Shown here piece by piece: positions 2,173-34,872 of a DNA stretch of 64,000 nt (position 1 is the stretch's first letter; each line of letters starts with the position of its first letter). Under the pieces are notes generated by a model, which saw only the letters and a program-made list of their open reading frames with translations, ran no database searches and had not been told where the DNA came from. Source of the DNA: Bradyrhizobium sp. WSM1417 (GTDB lineage: Bacteria; Pseudomonadota; Alphaproteobacteria; Rhizobiales; Xanthobacteraceae); the NCBI RefSeq assembly GCF_000515415.1, contig NZ_KI911783.1:1974392-2038391 (forward strand), in the 5' to 3' direction. The translations under genes were made by a program, and so were the position numbers.

Positions 2173-3305
2173 ATTGAGCTTACCGGTCGTGCTCTCGCCC
2201 GTGTAAGTTCACGGAGCCTGCCGCCACGCAGGCCATCGATTCAAGCCGAAGTTGAAGCTACGGCCGGCGGATCCGCAGATGTTACTCTCGGCTCCTTAAC
2301 GGCCAATCACGGCTTAGCCCGCTTATTTCCAGCGTTTGAAGCTGGTGGCCAGGGTGCACCTATCTCCTGTGACCGTACGCCGGCGGGGGGCACACATTGG
2401 GCAAGGAAAGCGCATCAACGTTCGGATGACCGCCTTCTGTCGCCTTCCGGACATGCGTCAGCACCGTTATCGAATGTTCCCATCCTCGCCAGAGGCTGCC
2501 AAGCCGATTTCCTTCAGCAAGATTCTGTACTGGCGGCCAATTTTCATCGCATGCGCATTTGGTACGACATTTGCTGACATAAGCTCCGCTAGTCTGGAGA
2601 AGCGCATGCACATCTTGATCCGCATCGAGCTCGTTTTTGACGCCGCGCAGGTTTGCGCGCGATGATGCGTCGCCATGCCAAAGTGATTGTCGCATGTCCG
2701 GCTGAGCTGAAAGCTGCGCTTGATCCGCGCCAAAGGTTCGTCGACGAAATCACCGCCGTTCGCCGATCCCTGGCCGAAGTGTGGCGGCGGCAGCCCTTGC
2801 TGCCCAGCGCCACCCGTGTGGCACCGTTGACGGGCGGCTTGACCGCCGGCGCTCGTGCCCTCGGCAAGAGTTGTTGGCCTCTCGCTGCAATCGGCAGGAT
2901 CTCGAGGCCATTCGGAGCAGTGGATCGCGTTTTCACCAGCAAGCACGCGTCCCACAACGATACCAGCCGAGCTTCTGGCAGGGTCCTCGATCCGTTCCAG
3001 CTCGGTTGCATCTCGACGATGAGGGGGACCCATCCATCGGATCACGGGACCGCGCGCTTAGATGCCGCTCCAGCGCCTATTGCCAAATGGTGCCCCAGAA
3101 TGCCGAACCCCGGAAAGAACCCGAAACGCGCTTCCGGGGTCATCCACACATTGACCGATGTCTGTCTTGGCCCGCGCTGCTGCCAGGCGGTGCTGGCACA
3201 ATGACGGCGGGCATCCGGTTGAAAATTTAACTGAGATCTTCAAGCGCGAAGTCGAAGCTCAAAGGCGGAGCACGCTTCGCTGGCGAGCCGCTACTGAACA
3301 CGGAT
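2173..3305. other. 1.1-kb intergenic stretch, no supportable gene
   Basis: Several frames stay open on both strands, but none shows a family motif, signal peptide or convincing ribosome site. The composition suggests decayed sequence. A weak sigma54-like element (TGGCAC, then CGGC instead of TTGC, GG-N10-GC) lies at 3194-3208, about 110 bases before fixB. It may be what remains of, or substitutes for, the fixBCX promoter. Confidence 0.4.
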
Positions 3306-3315
3306 GGGAGTACAC

Positions 3316-4431
3316 ATGATGAGCACCGCACCCAAAAGCGCAGCTCCGGCCGCGGGTGGTGGTCGCGCGGCGACCAAGAGGGAGCTGCCCGAACGATTTA
3401 AGGCCTATAGGCACGTCTGGGTCTTCATCGAGCAGGAACGCGGGGTTGTGCACCCCGTCTCCTGGGAGCTGATGGGAGCCGGCCGCCGACTCGCCGATAA
3501 GCTCAACGTCGATCTCGCCGCGGTCGTCATTGGCCCGGTCGGGGAGACAACGCAGCAGGCTGTCGCCGAATCCTTCTGCTACGGCGGCGACCTCGCCTAT
3601 ATCGTCGCGGACAATCTCTTGGCCGATTATCGCAACGAGCCCTATACCAAGGCCCTGTCTGAGCTGGTCAACATTTACAAGCCGGAAATCCTACTCCTAG
3701 GGGCAACTACACTCGGCCGCGACCTCGCCGGCTCAGTGGCCACCACACTGCTCACCGGGCTTACCGCCGACTGCACCGAGCTCGATGTCGATGCCGACGG
3801 CTCGCTTGCAGCGACCCGGCCGACGTTTGGCGGCTCACTGTTGTGCACGATCTATACACTCAATTATCGTCCACAGATGGCAACCGTCCGCCCGCGGGTG
3901 ATGCCAATGCCCGCGCGCGTGACGGGCGCCGTCTCGCGCGTGATCTCGCATCCGCTCGGGCTCGTAGAAGAGGATATCGTCACAAAAGTCCTGTCGTTCC
4001 TGCCCGACCGCGATTCTACGAAGTCCAACCTTGCCTATGCCGACGTGGTCGTCGCTGGAGGGCTTGGTCTGGGATCGCCCGAGAACTTCCAACTCGTACA
4101 GCAGCTTGCAGACGTGCTTGGCGCCGAATATGGCTGCTCGCGGCCGCTGGTCCAGAAGGGCTGGGTCACCTCGGACCGGCAAATCGGCCAGACCGGGAAA
4201 ACCATTCGGCCAAAGCTTTATATCGCGGCCGGTATTTCCGGGGCGATCCAGCATCGCGTCGGCGTAGAGGGGGGCGACCTCATCGTTGCGATCAATACCG
4301 ACAAGAACGCCCCGATCTTCGACTTCGCCCATATCGGCATCGTCACCGACGCCATTCGACTGTTGCCGGCATTGACCTCTGCATTCCGCGCGCGGCTCTC
4401 GCCGCACTCGCACGACCGCATCGCCGGCTAG
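3316..4431 (+). CDS. fixB: Electron-transfer flavoprotein alpha subunit FixB
   Basis: FixB is the FAD-binding subunit of the FixAB flavoprotein, which with FixC and FixX bifurcates electrons from NADH to quinone and to ferredoxin/flavodoxin for nitrogenase. The ~371-residue product has the ETF-alpha N-terminal domain ([24 protein letters not shown]) and the FAD-binding C-terminal domain ([39 protein letters not shown]). I place the start at ATG 3316 because GGGAG at 3306-3310 is 5 bases upstream; ATG 3304 lies within that site's context and 3319 is also possible. fixC follows after 10 bases. No fixA is in the window; in Bradyrhizobium it is typically elsewhere. Confidence 0.95.
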
Positions 4432-4441
4432 GGAGCTTGTT

Positions 4442-5749
4442 ATGATCGAGGAAAAATTCGACGCGATCGTCGTCGGTGCTGGCATGGGCGGGAATGCGGC
4501 GGCGCTTACCATGGCCGAGCGGGGCCTCAAAGTGCTGCAGCTGGAGCGCGGCGAGTATTCGGGGTCCAAGAACGTGCAGGGCGCCATCCTTTATGCCGAC
4601 ATGCTGGAGAAGCTGATCCCGAATTTCCGAGAAGATGCGCCGCTTGAGCGGCATCTGGTCGAGCAACGCTTCTGGATCGTGGACGAGCGTTCGCACACGG
4701 GGCTTCACTATCGCTCCGATGATTTCAATGAGGAGAAGCCGAACCGCTACACCATCATCCGGGCCCAATTCGATAAATGGTTCTCGCAGAAGGTTCGCGA
4801 GGCCGGCGCCACGGTGCTCTGCGAGACCACGGTGACCGAGCTCCTCCGGGATTCCCATGGGAGGGTCGTCGGGGTGCGCACAGACCGCGAGGGGGGAGAA
4901 ATCCATGCAGATGTCGTCGTGCTGGCGGAGGGGGTGAACGGGGTGCTCGGGACGCGTGCAGGCTTAAGAGGGCGGCCGAAAGCGGATAAGGTGGCACTCG
5001 CGGTCAAGGAAATGCACTTCCTGTCGCGCGAGACAATCGATGCTCGCTTCAATCTCAAGGGCGACGAGGGGCTCGTCATCGAAGCCGCCGGAACCATCTC
5101 CCGCGGCATGACCGGTATGGGTTTCATCTATGCCAACAAGGAATGCATCTCGCTGGGTATTGGGTGTCTCGTTGCCGACTTCCAGCGTACCGGCGAGACG
5201 CCCTACGGCCTGCTGGAGAACTTCAAGCGTCACCCCTCGGTCGCGCCGCTGATCGAGGGTTCGGAAGTAAAGGAATATTCCGCGCATTTGATCCCCGAAG
5301 GTGGGTACAAGGCCATCCCGCAGCTTTGTGGGGAGGGCTGGCTCGTCGTTGGAGACGCCGCCCAGCTCAACAACGCCATCCATCGCGAGGGGTCCAACCT
5401 GGCGATGACCTCCGGCCGTATCGCGGCGGAAGCGATATGTCTCATCAAATCGCGAAAAGCTCCAATGACGGCCAAAAACCTTTCACTTTACAACAAAATG
5501 CTGAACGATTCCTTCGTGATCAAGGACCTGAAGAAGTACAAGGATATGCCGGCACTGTTGCATACCCACTCCCAGAACTTCTTTCTCACATATCCGCAAC
5601 TCTTCTCGAAGGCGATGCAGGACTACGTGCGCGTCGACGGCACACCAAAGCTCGAGAAGGAGAAGCTAATGCTGAAGTCGTTCATCAAGGCGCGGTCATG
5701 GAGTGGACTGTTCAGCGATGCCCTGCGCATTGCGCGCGCCTGGCGCTGA
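4442..5749 (+). CDS. fixC: FAD-dependent oxidoreductase FixC (ETF-quinone oxidoreductase type)
   Basis: 435 residues, the usual FixC length. The N-terminus carries the Rossmann FAD-binding signature ([21 protein letters not shown]), and later blocks match the ETF-QO family ([28 protein letters not shown] near residue 300). It receives electrons from FixAB at the membrane and, with FixX, passes them toward quinone. A GGAG-type ribosome site precedes ATG 4442. Its TGA overlaps an upstream ATG of the fixX frame (ATGA at 5746-5749 region), which points to cotranslation. Confidence 0.95.
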
Positions 5750-9154: not shown

Positions 9155-10018
9155 TCAGCATTGCGACGTTATGGCCTCGGCGAATTCACACGATCGACAA
9201 AGCAGAAAGCCGTCCGCTCCGTTCATGCGATCGGAAATCTCGCAAAAACTCGCCCCTTCGAAGAGATCCTTGTACGTGTCGCGGAGGAGGTTGCCCAAAA
9301 CATGTCGTCGCTCAAAGTCCATGCAGCAGAAAGTAACGTCGCCGTTTGGGAGAAGAACATTGCGATACTGCCGTTCGTCAGGACACGCCAGTGCTCCGAC
9401 GAGTGGCTGTCGTGCTCCAACCACCTTGAGCTCGCCGCTGCCAGCGCTGCTGTGGGGCGGACGCGAGCGGACCAGCACTTCCTCAGGAATGATGTCGACA
9501 AGTTCTGGATGAACCTCGCCCCTAACTATGAAGAGCAATGATGAAATGTCGGAATCGACAAGTTGGCGCATCAAATCAACATAGTTGCGCCTGACGAGAC
9601 TACTATCCATGTGTGTGCCGTCATCAAAAACATGCACCAGGAAAACGCGGAACTGCAGCGCACGCAAGCGTCGTAGATCCTGGCCGTTCATTCCTACCAG
9701 GCTTGTTAAAATCCGGATGCCATGGCCACACGCGTAGGCGTGCTCAACCATTTCGGTGCAAGCCGGATTGAGCCAAGGCTCGGAGTAGCCGGAAAAGCTG
9801 ATGTCGACAGCGGCTGGTACGCGCGCTAGGCACCGCTTGAAATCTTGGAGAGAGAGATCCTTCACCTCGGATATTTCTCTCTGGCGTTCGGCAAACTTGT
9901 CCTGCGGGCAATAAGAACATCCGACGACACAGCCCGTTGTCGTAGTTATCTCCAAAATCCTGCCGCCAGTGATTGCAGAACGCAGTTCCTGTCGAGCCAT
10001 CGCGTCTATATTGTCCAC
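9155..10018 (-). CDS. Radical SAM protein with SPASM-type C-terminal domain
   Basis: 287 residues. The radical SAM [4Fe-4S] motif C-x3-C-x2-C is at Cys30, Cys34, Cys37 (TTTTGCVVGCSYCPQDKF). A GYSEP motif follows the first half of the barrel. The C-terminal third has paired cysteines in the SPASM/twitch pattern (CPDERQYRN..., LPNGDVTFCCMDF, LLCRSCEF), expected to hold one or two auxiliary clusters. Such enzymes modify peptides, sugars or other metabolites; the substrate cannot be told here. The nearest genes on both sides are debris, and no precursor peptide was recognised. Start GTG 10018 follows a GGAG-like site; ATG 10000 is an alternative. Confidence 0.85.
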   Translation of the reverse strand: MDNIDAMARQELRSAITGGRILEITTTTGCVVGCSYCPQDKFAERQREISEVKDLSLQDFKRCLARVPAAVDISFSGYSEPWLNPACTEMVEHAYACGHGIRILTSLVGMNGQDLRRLRALQFRVFLVHVFDDGTHMDSSLVRRNYVDLMRQLVDSDISSLLFIVRGEVHPELVDIIPEEVLVRSRPPHSSAGSGELKVVGARQPLVGALACPDERQYRNVLLPNGDVTFCCMDFERRHVLGNLLRDTYKDLFEGASFCEISDRMNGADGFLLCRSCEFAEAITSQC

Positions 10019-11393: not shown

Positions 11394-12846
11394 CTAGCAC
11401 TACTTTGGCAGATTCCCAGTTTTGCCTGCTTTATAGGATTCCCGAATCAATTTTTCAATGATTCATGGGTGGTCGGCTCTTGGAGGGCTGACCATGCCGG
11501 GATGGGAAGACGAACTCGAACGATGGCTGATGCCGTTCTTGGACCGACTGGGTCATAAGACCCGGCAGCGGATGTGTCCCCTGTATGTTGCGGGGTTGAT
11601 CGGTCCGGGCGATCGCAAGCGCGTTCAGCCGATGGCGGAACGCCTTGCCACGAGCAACTACGACCAGTTGCACCATTTCATTGCGGACGGTGTCTGGGAC
11701 GCGACGCCGCTGGAAACAGAGCTTCTCAACCAGGCAGACCGACTTGTCGGCGGCCGCGATGCGGTGCTGGTTATTGATGATACCTCACTGCCGAAGAAGG
11801 GTGAGCGCTCGGTCGGTGTTGCGGCACAATACGCGTCGGCTCTCGGTAAAACGGCAAATTGCCAAACGCTGGTGTCTTTAACGCTTGCGCGCGGTGAAGT
11901 GCCAGTGATGGTCGCGTTACGTCTCTTTCTGCCTGACAGTTGGACAAGCGACGTGTCTCGTTTGAAGCGCGCTCGCGTGCCCCTCGAACACCGAACGCCA
12001 CGGTCCAAGCCGGAGATTGCTTTGGCCGAGATTGACCGGGTGATGGCAGCCAACGTGCGCTTTGGATGTGTGCTGGCGGATGCAGGATACGGCCTCAGCG
12101 CACCGTTTCGACAAGGACTAACAGAGCGCGGGCTGGCCTGGGCCGTCGGCATCCCTCGGCACCTGAAGGTGTATCCGGTCGATGTGAAGCTCATTTGGCC
12201 GATCACCAAAGTCCGTGGGAAACCACGAAAGCACCACGTGCCCGATATCTTATCAATTGCGGCAGAACAAATGCTGGCCAGCGCCAAATGGAAAACCGTG
12301 AGTTGGCGCAGCGGGACCAAAGGTCGGCTGAAAGCCCGATTTGCTGCTGTCCGTGTCCGCACCGCCGACGGACCTCCGCAGCGGATATGGGATAAGGGTC
12401 AGCAGCATCTCCCGGGCGACGAAGCCTGGCTCATTGGCGAGCAACGTGCCTCAGGGGAGAAGAAATACTATCTCGCCAACCTGCCTGCGGCGACCGATCT
12501 GCGCACACTCGCCGCCACCATCAAGGCACGCTGGATTTGCGAGCAGGCGCATCAGCAGCTGAAAGAGGAGCTTGGACTTGATCACTTCGAAGGGCGATCA
12601 TGGCAAGGTCTTCATCGCCACGCTCTAATGACCATGATCGCCTATACCTTCTTGCAACACCGTCGCCTCGCATCCGCGGGGCGGAAAAAAAAGAATCAAC
12701 GGGCCTCCGCCTCAGCCAACCATGCCCGCGGTACGTCACGCTATCGTCGATCTCATCCTTCGGCCGCCGTCTCAGCAGTGCCCCTACTGCCGAAAACAAA
12801 TCCCTGAAAAACACTGCGCAAATAGATTCTGCCAAAGTAGTGCTAG
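11394..12846. mobile_element. IS701-family insertion sequence with CTAG target duplication
   Basis: The element proper is 11398-12842 (1445 bp). Its ends are perfect 15-bp inverted repeats (CACTACTTTGGCAGA at 11398-11412 and its complement at 12828-12842). Both sides are flanked by CTAG (11394-11397 and 12843-12846), the 4-bp YTAR-type target duplication known for the IS701 family. The intact ends and duplication indicate a relatively recent insertion. It lies against the end of the IS5-like remnant. Confidence 0.9.
11494..12807 (+). CDS. IS701-family transposase
   Basis: A DDE transposase of the IS701 family. The N-terminal part reads WEDELERWLMPFLDRLGHKTRQRMCPLYVAGLIGPGDRKRVQPMAERL. The catalytic region has VLVIDDTSLPKKGERSVGVAAQY (first Asp), CVLADAGYG (second Asp) and ARWICEQAHQQLKEELGLDHFEGRSW (Glu region). 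ATG 11494 follows a GGAGGG site. Near the C-terminus an A8 run (12685-12692) shifts the frame: with seven A the product would end in KKRINGPPPQPT... and a CPYC pair, the usual IS701 end. As written it ends in an unrelated Ser/Arg-rich tail. The catalytic core is complete, so activity is possible. Confidence 0.9.
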   Translation: MPGWEDELERWLMPFLDRLGHKTRQRMCPLYVAGLIGPGDRKRVQPMAERLATSNYDQLHHFIADGVWDATPLETELLNQADRLVGGRDAVLVIDDTSLPKKGERSVGVAAQYASALGKTANCQTLVSLTLARGEVPVMVALRLFLPDSWTSDVSRLKRARVPLEHRTPRSKPEIALAEIDRVMAANVRFGCVLADAGYGLSAPFRQGLTERGLAWAVGIPRHLKVYPVDVKLIWPITKVRGKPRKHHVPDILSIAAEQMLASAKWKTVSWRSGTKGRLKARFAAVRVRTADGPPQRIWDKGQQHLPGDEAWLIGEQRASGEKKYYLANLPAATDLRTLAATIKARWICEQAHQQLKEELGLDHFEGRSWQGLHRHALMTMIAYTFLQHRRLASAGRKKKNQRASASANHARGTSRYRRSHPSAAVSAVPLLPKTNP

Positions 12847-13006
12847 TTTGCTGTAACGCGGCTTGGACCGTGAAATCCTCTCGCAGGAGTTGGCGGTAGC
12901 GCACCGCAAGTTTCCCAGGGCGCCGCGCGCATTGCCAAAAAGGAATTGCCTTCAACCCAGATCAAGTCCGTGGGCAAGGTCCGGATGCGTCAGACCCCTC
13001 GATCCT

Positions 13007-13022
13007 TGTCCGCTTTCTGACA
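13007..13022 (+). promoter_or_regulatory. NifA upstream activator site (distal)
   Basis: TGT-N10-ACA, the exact NifA consensus. Its centre is about 133 bases upstream of the predicted start of transcription near 13148, inside the normal window for NifA sites. Confidence 0.75.
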
Positions 13023-13036
13023 GCGGTGCACAAAGC

Positions 13037-13052
13037 TGTCAGATTCAAAACA
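13037..13052 (+). promoter_or_regulatory. NifA upstream activator site (proximal)
   Basis: A second exact TGT-N10-ACA, 30 bases after the first (about three helical turns, same DNA face) and about 103 bases upstream of the predicted transcription start. Confidence 0.75.
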
Positions 13053-13121
13053 CGGTGCGCCGTTTGCGCATCGCGAACTGTTTCAAAGCACAATCAGGCG
13101 CTTAATGCGCGCCAGGAGCGC

Positions 13122-13137
13122 TGGCACGGCCCTTGCT
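13122..13137 (+). promoter_or_regulatory. Sigma54 (-24/-12) promoter of the DUF4189 gene
   Basis: TGGCAC, five bases, TTGCT, with GG (13123-13124) and GC (13135-13136) separated by 10 bases: a full match to the sigma54 consensus. It lies 58 bases before the ATG at 13195. With the two NifA sites upstream it forms a complete nif-type promoter. Confidence 0.88.
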
Positions 13138-13194
13138 CTATTCCGCCGTAGGGCAATAGCGGTGCGATGCTCAAATCCAAATGGAGGAAAGTGA

Positions 13195-13569
13195 ATGCGT
13201 AAACTAATAATCGGCGCCCTCGCGCTGTTCATTTCAAACACTACCGCGTTCGCCGGCTCCGGGGCCATCGCATACTCCAAACCAGATGACGTGGTCGGTT
13301 TCTCGTACGGATCTGGATCACAACGGCACGCTAGATGGTGGGCCCTGCTTAACTGTCGCGGCAACGGCGGCTCGGATTGCCGAATCGCAGCTTACGAAAA
13401 TAACGCTTGCGCCGCCGTTGCCATAGGCAGGGGACGCGGGGTGGGACGTGCGTGGTCGTCCCACCCAATTGGTGAATTGGAAGAGGAGCGATCGCAACAA
13501 GGCGCGCTGATCAGATGCGATGAGACCGGCGACGAGGACTGCAAAGTCCGGGCCTTGGTTTGCCACTAA
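13195..13569 (+). CDS. Secreted DUF4189-family protein, NifA/sigma54-controlled
   Basis: 124 residues. The N-terminus is a clear signal peptide (MRKLIIGALALFISNTTAFA, cleavage after AFA). The mature part begins GSGAIAYSKPDDVVGFSYG and has the DUF4189 pattern: a repeat of basic/Ala-rich helix and paired cysteines (LLNCRGNGGSDCRIAAYENNACAAVAIG, and ALIRCDETGDEDCKVRALVC as seen). Some DUF4189 proteins are periplasmic; their function is not known. A strong GGAGGAAA ribosome site precedes the ATG. The promoter architecture upstream indicates expression together with nitrogenase in low-oxygen nodule cells (inference). It stands alone as a one-gene unit with its own terminator-like hairpin. Confidence 0.85.
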   Translation: MRKLIIGALALFISNTTAFAGSGAIAYSKPDDVVGFSYGSGSQRHARWWALLNCRGNGGSDCRIAAYENNACAAVAIGRGRGVGRAWSSHPIGELEEERSQQGALIRCDETGDEDCKVRALVCH

Positions 13570-13632
13570 CTCGCCGCGAATGAATCCCGGACGTAGTTGC
13601 CATAGTTTCGGTCAACGGCTCTAGGGCGGCGC

Positions 13633-13656
13633 GTCCGGCGAACCGGACCGGCTTTT
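13633..13656 (+). terminator. Rho-independent-type terminator of the DUF4189 gene
   Basis: A perfect 6-bp GC stem (13633-13638 with 13643-13648), CGAA tetraloop, then CGGC and TTTT (13653-13656). It lies about 64 bases past the stop codon. Confidence 0.5.
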
Positions 13657-14400
13657 GTGAACCGAGCCCGGACGGTCTCGGCCTTTCGTCTTCAATCCTC
13701 GCGCTCATTTAAGCGTTCCTTGCCGGAGGCACTCGCGCGAAGGGCTCGTCGTTTCGCGGCGATGGCTAGCACTGCCTGTCGCGCGGGTGCCTTGTTAACC
13801 GGTCTCGCAACTGCACGCGCTGTCAAGGGCCGCCGTTCCGGCGTCGCTATCACTGCCCCTAAAGCGGGGTGCCATCCTTTCCGCCTCCATTGCGCTTCGG
13901 CCGTCATTTAATTACGCCGGATGGACGTGTACCAAGGCCGCCTATGCCGCCGCCTTGTCTTCGGGCCCGCGCATGACGATCTTCACCGGGCCAGGTACTC
14001 GGCAAAGCGATTCGCCAGCACGAGGCAATGGTTCTCTGGCTTTAGCCTGCCGCGCCAAGCTCTGGACCTTGCGAAGGTGATCGTGTCGCGAAGACTGGAC
14101 GAGGTCTATGGCAGCCTTCACTCATCCCAATCCAGCTCGGCGCCCAATCAAGGGTCGGGCACACGAATTCCAATCCCCGACGGCCCGAGCTGACGATCGC
14201 TTGTTCCTGTGTTGTTCGCAATTGGCGCGGACTCGCTGTATACATCTGTACTTGCCGCGCCAGGGCCGGATCGCCGGGCCTCGCTAAGGCCGCCCGGCCG
14301 AACCGCCGCCGTTAGCCTGCATCTGGCTGTGGTTGACGTGGCTTTGACGGCTGAAAGGCATGGTGGGGACCGACGATCCAAACTATGTTTGTCGCCAGAA
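13657..14400. other. Intergenic stretch, nothing recognisable
   Basis: Open frames on both strands (for example 13657-13911) are Ala/Arg-rich and match no family I know; treated as non-coding. Confidence 0.35.
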
Positions 14401-32921: not shown

Positions 32922-33851
32922 ATGAAAACGCAGCTCACAATTTGTTTGGCTTGGGTTGCAGCGTGCACGGCTGCCAGCACTCCGTGTTCTGCGGAGGAAG
33001 AGTTTTCCAGACAACAACTCTTCTCTGTAATTAGGAACGTGGAAGCGAACATCGACCCCTTCAGCTTGCCGTCCAAATTCAAATTTCCTGACAATGCCAG
33101 GGCAAGCTCAACATTTGGAGTGGATTTCTCACATCACCAAGAAGACGCCTGCAAATGCGAGTACGACTGGGGTGGCATTTACGATCAAAAGGTGCAGTTT
33201 GTGTATTTAAAAGCGACACAGGGTCTTTCATATGTTGATCCTTCGCTGAAGACAAATCTTCCCAGGGTACAGAAAACACGTATAGAAGCTGGCGCTTATC
33301 ACTTCCTCTCGTCGGCGGACGATGCGACGGCGCAAGCAGACTTCTTCTTGAAAACCGTTCAACCATTTGGGGCGTTAAAGCTTCCGTCGAGCTTGGATCT
33401 CGAATGGGATGCCGGTCCGATGCGAGACGATTGCCCTAATGACGCTGTGATCAAGATTCGAAAAGCCGCGGACGAGGTCGTGCTTAGGTGCGATAAATGG
33501 AGCTTCTTGTCGGCAGACGAGATTATTGAGCGGGTCAACCGGTGGCTAGATAAAGTTAAGTTAAGTGAAAAGCGCGATCCGGTGCTCTACACTTCGGCCG
33601 CATGGTGGCGCGCGCGAATAGGGAAGCGAGACCGAGCGAAAGAAATTAGTACGCCGATCTTTTGGGTTGCCGACTATTCAGGTAACGGTTTGGCGACCGA
33701 GAAACCAGGAACGCCGCCTGGTGCTGAATGGACCTTATGGCAATTTACGGATGCCGCCGCTTTGCCTCAAGTAAGATCGACAATTCACATAGATGCATCG
33801 ATCTTTGATGGTTCAATCGACAAATTGCATTCAGTGCTTCACGTAAATTGA
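32922..33851 (+). CDS. Secreted GH25-type lysozyme (muramidase)
   Basis: 309 residues with a signal peptide (TQLTICLAWVAACTAASTPCSA). GH25 blocks follow in order: FGVDFSHHQ with the first catalytic-side Asp, VQFVYLKATQGLSYVDP, EAGAYHFLSSADDATAQADFF, LDLEWD (the catalytic acid pair region), PVLYTSAAWW, FWVADYSGNG, WTLWQFTD and the final Asp in IDASIFDG. A longer insertion follows LDLEWD (RDDCPNDAVIKIRKAADE). It would cleave peptidoglycan beta-1,4 links outside the cytoplasm. A GGGGGAG ribosome site precedes ATG 32922. The protease gene follows after 10 bases, so the two form a secreted pair. Confidence 0.85.
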   Translation: MKTQLTICLAWVAACTAASTPCSAEEEFSRQQLFSVIRNVEANIDPFSLPSKFKFPDNARASSTFGVDFSHHQEDACKCEYDWGGIYDQKVQFVYLKATQGLSYVDPSLKTNLPRVQKTRIEAGAYHFLSSADDATAQADFFLKTVQPFGALKLPSSLDLEWDAGPMRDDCPNDAVIKIRKAADEVVLRCDKWSFLSADEIIERVNRWLDKVKLSEKRDPVLYTSAAWWRARIGKRDRAKEISTPIFWVADYSGNGLATEKPGTPPGAEWTLWQFTDAAALPQVRSTIHIDASIFDGSIDKLHSVLHVN

Positions 33852-33861
33852 CGGACGGCAA

Positions 33862-34872
33862 ATGCGCAAAAGACCTTTCTTTTCGTGCGAGTGTGTCAGG
33901 CGTTTGATCGCATTGATAGTCTTGGCTTGGTCCGGTGCTATCCCCGGCAGCGCAAAAGCTGACCTCACAGACCTGTCTGCTAAAGCAGCCAGGACTACGG
34001 TCTACATCTCCACCACCTTTGTTGATCAAAAGACAGGGGACACCAAAACAGAAATCGGTAGTGGGTTTTTAGTTTCTGCCGAAGGAGACATTCTGACCGA
34101 CTATCATGTCATTGCGGATTGGCTGGCGGGAACTGATGCGCAAAAGGAGAAGTATCCACTGAAGATCCGGATCGGCAGCAAATTCAGCGCTGAGATCCCT
34201 GCGGTATTTGAAACGGGTGACCCGCGCGACGATTTCGCGCTTTTACGTGCTCTTGGTCTAAGTGAACCACCGTTCGCACCGATATGCTTCAACCCAAATG
34301 TGCAGTCAGGTTCATTCATCTTTGCCTTTGGTTATCCCAATGACCGCGAGCTCGCGCCGATTCCTGGCACTTTTAACAACCTCAACGGCGACAAGAACCG
34401 GTGGTTAGCAACTATCCCGGTGGCGAGAGGAATGAGCGGTGGTCCAGTTTACAACGAAAAAGGGTTCGTGATCGGGCTGATAAACGGAGGAGCCGATCCG
34501 ACGACGAGCTTGATAACACCTATTCGTTGGGCAAAGTCGGCAATCGAAAACAGAACGACTGCTCGCCCTGCGTGCTATCGCTTCTGTAGAACTCCCGAGA
34601 ATGGAGTGGAAGGGTGGGGAAACACAAGCCCCTGGTCTGGTACCACCGAATGGCTTTCGGGCGGGCATAATCAAACTGAAGCGTGCGGCAGGCTACAGCA
34701 ACAATACATCGCATCGCATCCTGGCCAGGCGCTGGATATCGTTCAAACCTCTGAGACTAGCCAGAAAGACTTTCTCGGCCATGTGACCTATCAATATATT
34801 TGCAATGGAGTGGTGAAATTGAATCCGGTCTATGCGCTAAAGGATTCGCCAGCGTGTGGACTGGAGCAATAG
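33862..34872 (+). CDS. Secreted trypsin-like serine protease
   Basis: 336 residues. Signal peptide (LIALIVLAWSGAIPGSAKA). The S1-type triad is visible: His in ILTDYHVIADW, Asp in DPRDDFALLRA and Ser in ARGMSGGPVYNEKG. The C-terminal ~110 residues after the protease fold carry cysteines and aromatics (CYRFCRTPENGVEGWGNTSPW, ACGRLQQQYIASHPGQ, YICNGV), probably a small disulfide-bonded domain. Cotranscribed with the lysozyme gene. Possible roles: wall remodelling or attack on competitors (inference). Confidence 0.85.
   Translation: MRKRPFFSCECVRRLIALIVLAWSGAIPGSAKADLTDLSAKAARTTVYISTTFVDQKTGDTKTEIGSGFLVSAEGDILTDYHVIADWLAGTDAQKEKYPLKIRIGSKFSAEIPAVFETGDPRDDFALLRALGLSEPPFAPICFNPNVQSGSFIFAFGYPNDRELAPIPGTFNNLNGDKNRWLATIPVARGMSGGPVYNEKGFVIGLINGGADPTTSLITPIRWAKSAIENRTTARPACYRFCRTPENGVEGWGNTSPWSGTTEWLSGGHNQTEACGRLQQQYIASHPGQALDIVQTSETSQKDFLGHVTYQYICNGVVKLNPVYALKDSPACGLEQ

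Follow-up and report, generated by a model that had tools for sequence, protein, structure and literature searches.

The stretch of DNA analyzed here, called the window, comprises 64,000 nucleotides of the Bradyrhizobium sp. WSM1417 genome (G000:C1:1974392-2038391) and belongs to a symbiosis region. Within it, a gene encoding a DUF4189 protein lies behind a sigma54 promoter carrying two NifA upstream activator sequences (UASs). The following features were located at this gene:

12843..13158, + strand: promoter module common to other Bradyrhizobium genomes (DNA comparison)
13007..13022, + strand: NifA UAS 1, TGT-N10-ACA, exact, TGTCCGCTTTCTGACA
13037..13052, + strand: NifA UAS 2, TGT-N10-ACA, exact, TGTCAGATTCAAAACA
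13092..13104, + strand: IHF-like site, one mismatch to what we take to be the IHF consensus
13122..13136, + strand: sigma54 -24/-12 promoter, TGGCACGGCCCTTGC(T), TGGCACG-N4-TTGCT, exact
13159..13160, + strand: junction between promoter module and DUF4189 leader; B. retamae has a stretch of ~560 nt here
13183..13187, + strand: ribosome binding site GGAGG, 7 nt before the ATG at 13195
13195..13569, + strand: DUF4189 gene, 124 amino acids (open reading frame (ORF) and Pfam)
13195..13254, + strand: signal-peptide-like start, residues 1-20, ending in AFA and followed by GS (by eye)
13255..13569, + strand: mature two-lobed domain, beta-beta-alpha-beta twice (predicted)
13633..13648, + strand: weak terminator-like hairpin, 6 pairs, 64 nt past the stop codon

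NifA/sigma54 promoter of the DUF4189 gene

An earlier note on this sequence had described two exact TGT-N10-ACA sites 30 bases apart, a perfect -24/-12 promoter and a strong ribosome site in front of a DUF4189 gene, and every one of these elements was recovered. The family assignment was borne out by a match to PF13827 over residues 23-123 (E 9e-15, 55.5 bits against a cut-off of 25). Both promoter elements agree with the consensus sequences TGGCACG-N4-TTGCW (-24/-12) and TGT-N10-ACA (UAS), as given in PMC4999443. TGT-N10-ACA alone is common, occurring 12 times in the window against 5.55 expected from shuffles. The whole genome (8.05 Mb) contains 24 perfect TGGCACG-N4-TTGC sites, four of them lie within 250 bp of an exact UAS, and the DUF4189 promoter alone has two. 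At the shuffle density of the window, chance alone would yield ~0.0003 perfect -24/-12 sites accompanied by two UASs.

A composite pattern (UAS, 50-110 nt, TGGCA-N6-TTGC) gave 10 matches at nine places in the genome, seven of them between 1.89 and 2.35 Mb, while a reversed-pattern control gave none. Judged by eye, the genes behind these places are nifD, nifB, the DUF4189 gene and genes for thioredoxin-like, condensation-domain-like and acyl-CoA-synthetase-like proteins; at three of the nine none was recognized. Since nifH is not among the matches, the pattern misses some NifA promoters. The thioredoxin-like protein, encoded near 1895943 (L046), has a long C-terminal part (by eye).

The terminator-like hairpin described in the earlier note is present, but weak and not evidently above chance: between 12900 and 14000, three terminator-like sites were counted against 1.2 +/- 1.2 in shuffles, and the fold of 13570-13700 has a z-score of -0.74. 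Nor is it common to seven of the eight relatives compared, whose DNA similarity to the window stops at the stop codon (13569), before the hairpin. Rfam returned no match at gathering thresholds on 12800-14400. Control of the DUF4189 gene by NifA and sigma54 appears well founded, the evidence being as good as sequence alone permits.

Distribution of the gene and reuse of its promoter

Among 265 Bradyrhizobium genomes, 10 matched the protein at E 1e-6, and nine of these, the own genome included, carry orthologs at 75% identity or more. The named carriers besides WSM1417 are B. retamae Ro19, B. sp. CSA207, B. hipponense, B. canariense BTA-1 and B. sp. CSS354. The tenth match (G002/L021) has 49% identity over 82 residues and lacks both NodA and an exact promoter; it was excluded from ortholog counts and codon tests. 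NodA was found in all nine carriers and in 139 of the 265 genomes overall, and NifA (TIGR01817 over its cut-off) likewise in all nine carriers. The earlier note had suggested a search for the same promoter-gene arrangement in other Bradyrhizobium; the exact -24/-12 element is identical at all nine ortholog loci, eight of which have at least one exact UAS and six have two. Because the gene is accessory and occurs in only nine of the 139 NodA genomes, it stands outside the core nitrogenase programme. The earlier suggestion that the protein is made together with nitrogenase is supported by sequence with regard to NifA/sigma54 control, but not with regard to membership of that programme. In line with the earlier note, a limited literature search brought up no paper that places a DUF4189 protein in a nif/fix setting.

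The protein was further compared with several collections. A PDB search by sequence gave no credible relative (best E 0.1), NCBIfam a single match far under its cut-off, and tblastn against a plasmid collection no match. In an order-level profile search covering 397 genomes of a larger group, the own genome alone matched at E 1e-15. Stand-alone DUF4189 relatives in Bradyrhizobium (P0012 group) are 21-32% identical to the window protein. Two further DUF4189 genes of the own genome exceed the cut-off (L009 and L010); neither has a UAS upstream or a -24/-12 element with fewer than two mismatches. L009 encodes a caspase-like protein with the domain at its end, and in L012 a DUF4189 match below the threshold ends an alpha/beta-hydrolase-like protein (enzyme names by eye). 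The protein encoded in the window is an accessory, fast-changing domain, and it is probably exported, as judged from its sequence.

The promoter is far more widespread than the gene. Positions 12843-13194 matched 39 of the 265 genomes at E 1e-10. At six loci (L077-L082) a similarity of 88-92% ends at 13158-13159, where other sequence begins; the DUF4189 gene is absent, and a short ORF starting with MNGTTGSW, or close to it, is followed by an ORF resembling a flavin adenine dinucleotide (FAD) oxidoreductase. At five more distant loci (L086, L088, L089, L091 and L092) a pyridoxal phosphate (PLP)-dependent decarboxylase of the Orn/Arg type lies behind the promoter. Both enzyme types were assigned with Pfam on one 110-residue piece of each. 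The two-UAS NifA module thus appears to be a reusable symbiosis promoter that also precedes FAD oxidoreductase-like or PLP decarboxylase genes. Conservation within the module was compared at 13 of the 30 loci L068-L097, after setting aside the remaining DUF4189 loci, near copies and those lacking an exact match to the pattern. In 12 distant copies, UAS half-sites agree with the window in 136 of 144 cells and the -24/-12 element in 125 of 132, as against 910 of 1236 in the N10, inter-UAS and spacer cells.

Two further arrangements were seen. In B. retamae the gene starts 618 nt past the -12 element, compared with 58 in the window, and a piece of the short ORF (MNGTTGSW...MPSKEQTNAK, L013:530-1090) lies in between. 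In strain S3.12.5 (P0006) a piece of the same short ORF is fused to the DUF4189 N-terminus. These arrangements may represent steps of the gene moving up to a pre-existing NifA promoter, a direction that we infer. The DUF4189 promoter looks to have been taken over from one or more other symbiosis genes. ORFs of 67 amino acids related to the B. retamae short-ORF piece occur in L093 and L095; the one that was checked had no Pfam match.

Transfer, selection and surroundings

Between the window and B. retamae, the synonymous divergence (dS) is 0.033 for the DUF4189 gene and 1.28 for fixC, which indicates that the gene moved recently between islands. Genome G216 has a syntenic neighbourhood, with fixC ~6-7 kb upstream in the same contig, and its dS to the window agrees between the two genes (0.050 and 0.057). 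The nonsynonymous divergence (dN) of the same pair is 0.110 for the DUF4189 gene versus 0.006 for fixC, and differences amount to 0.035 in the upstream DNA and 0.094 in the coding sequence.

Codon models were run with our own implementation on eight distinct sequences; CSA207 was excluded, its coding sequence being identical to that of B. hipponense. Model M0 gave a dN/dS ratio (omega) of 1.85 (p 0.024 against 1), while fixC, with an omega of 0.051, is under strong purifying selection. Model M2a was strongly preferred over M1a (2dlnL 30.2), with 24% of codons near an omega of 8. This signal was significant in each half of the gene with its own tree, was kept under two other topologies, and was reached by none of 200 null data sets. 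Codons 36, 40, 45, 48, 56, 63, 65, 66, 69, 79, 86, 88, 92, 105, 106, 117 and 121 have a posterior above 0.8. Nine of the ten selected codons in predicted strands occupy alternate strand positions, codon 66 being the exception, which on the predicted model fits a single exposed face. The structure alignment comprised 48 proteins. Change faster than neutral drift suggests contact with something variable, possibly the host plant.

In the surroundings of the gene, the following features were found in the window:

380-1093: NifQ
1621-2172: NifW-bearing ORF
3304-4431: ETF alpha
4442-5749: FixC-like flavoprotein (the FixC name is our own reading)
11458..12807, + strand: DDE_5 transposase ORF, within a 1.4 kb stretch missing from relatives, where 11397 joins 12843

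The FixC-like, NifW and NifQ genes thus lie 7-12 kb from the DUF4189 gene; NodA and NifA are 0.4 Mb from the window. The ORF at 1621-2172 resembles HMGL at its start and NifW at its end and may be a fusion of a truncated nifV with nifW; an exact -24/-12-like site (1622-1636) coincides with its start. A second such site, with one mismatch, is found at 2560-2574 behind a UAS at 2438. Between the fix genes and the DUF4189 gene, a 287-amino-acid Radical SAM/SPASM protein is encoded on the minus strand (9155-10018). Further away, at 32922-34872, a GH25 lysozyme-like ORF adjoins a trypsin-like ORF, both with export-like starts (by eye). In B. hipponense (L006:5830-8198), ORFs resembling conjugation or type IV secretion genes (by eye) adjoin the DUF4189 gene.

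A putative exported domain of the nitrogen-fixing stage

As usually described, NifA targets build, feed or protect nitrogenase. The DUF4189 gene resembles members of the NifA/sigma54 regulon in its consensus -24/-12 and TGT-N10-ACA elements at the usual spacing and in its proximity to fix and nif genes. It is unlike a typical member in encoding a putatively exported DUF4189 protein present in nine of 265 genomes, in its apparently captured promoter and in its signal of diversifying selection. In PMC10454721, fixBCX is named among the NifA targets, and some members of the Bradyrhizobium NifA/sigma54 (RpoN) regulon, among them nrgA and nrgBC, have no known function.

From the promoter and its reuse, the ORF, the family and the codon statistics, all read from the DNA, and from the predicted fold, we infer promoter activity, export, a partner and a function as follows. 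A DUF4189 gene on the symbiosis island would have been placed downstream of a two-UAS NifA/sigma54 promoter that already existed. At low oxygen, as in nodules, NifA bound at the UASs would contact sigma54-RNA polymerase via an IHF-assisted loop and switch the gene on. The protein would then be exported by Sec and oxidized in the periplasm, giving a two-lobed domain held by disulfides (putative pairs C54-C62, C108-C116 and C72-C123). Diversifying selection appears to act on variable positions of its conserved core, which suggests a binding or decoy domain with a changing partner. Most likely, its role would be to bind a variable partner in the fixing nodule, be it the plant or another microbe, if there is such a partner at all. 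We lean towards an exported binding or decoy domain that meets this partner outside the inner membrane at the fixing stage, the partner most probably being a plant-derived symbiosome molecule.

Several observations weigh against this interpretation. The gene is rare, and versions of 78 amino acids occur in two strains (P0009 and P0010); hence it is dispensable. CSS354 lacks an exact UAS, and B. canariense and G255 have one each; among the 12 distant promoter copies, six have two exact UASs, four have one and two have none. In eight close orthologs (B. retamae excluded because of its insert), 13 of 16 columns are conserved in each UAS versus 133 of 164 upstream, which is no excess; the conservation seen in the distant copies is one that close orthologs could not show. 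As to selection, the tests used eight distinct sequences, and a tree-wide omega above 1 reached only p 0.024. The excess arises mainly between the window, B. retamae, G216 and the hipponense-like group; within hipponense, CSA207, G255 and G094 pairwise omega is 0.48-0.63, for canariense-CSS354 it is 0.95, and many pairs within the hipponense-like group show fewer differences in the coding sequence than in the upstream DNA. Moreover, incompatibility affects 113 of the 325 informative site pairs. Recombination, which was not part of the null simulations, could therefore exaggerate the result of the site test. A Foldseek search with the predicted model gave no match reaching E 0.001. Finally, a variable partner is not necessarily a plant.

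The partner could instead be microbial: once exported, the protein would inhibit, or give immunity-like protection from, the lytic enzymes, proteases or bacteriocins of rival bacteria or phage in the nodule, and these rivals would drive its change. Such a conflict would suit a small disulfide domain that is putatively exported and has an omega above 1, and the occurrence of DUF4189 at the ends of the caspase-like and, below threshold, the alpha/beta-hydrolase-like protein indicates that the domain can accompany hydrolases. Yet no toxin or immunity partner was recognized among the neighbours scanned, NifA control would restrict the protein to the fixing stage, and every carrier has NodA; we consider this reading unlikely. 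Rather unlikely, too, is that the gene is a passenger of a mobile island, placed behind a good promoter by chance and expressed while its sequence drifts without a selected role. Its rarity, recent transfer and short versions, the transposon remnants around it and the decay of the UASs in CSS354 all point that way, but drift predicts an omega near 1, in contrast to the values from M0 and M2a, and all nine ORFs are open with one in-frame gap, whereas the upstream DNA has indels. That the sigma54 promoter is real but served by another activator, or silent at this place, the protein being an ordinary periplasmic stress protein, seems very improbable: UASs are lost or reduced in three of nine orthologs, but their half-sites are conserved in the distant copies, and nifD and nifB (by eye) are likewise among the genes behind composite-pattern matches.

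A more specific role could be derived from Rv1813c of Mycobacterium tuberculosis, for which PMC10269737 reports a structure (7nhz), a conserved C-terminal WACN motif with a solvent-exposed tryptophan, secretion into the medium and mitochondrial targeting upon expression in host cells. The predicted model of the window protein shares its two-lobe beta-beta-alpha-beta fold, and selected position 121 aligns (by eye) with the WACN tryptophan. However, identity is 19-20%, and WACN itself is absent: the window protein has LVCH, and orthologs have AWVCH (six of nine), AVVCH (one) or ARVCH (one). By analogy, the NifA-driven protein might leave the bacteroid for the symbiosome space or the plant cell and engage a host factor, possibly in mitochondrial energy metabolism, in an evolutionary race, which we regard as improbable. 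If it were so, two unrelated intracellular bacteria would share an exported fold under low-oxygen regulators.

A putatively exported NifA-type target whose omega exceeds 1 would indicate that the bacterium is still negotiating with its host, or with rivals, during nitrogen fixation. The locus illustrates how a ready-made promoter may allow a symbiosis island to bring a new gene into the nitrogen-fixation programme.
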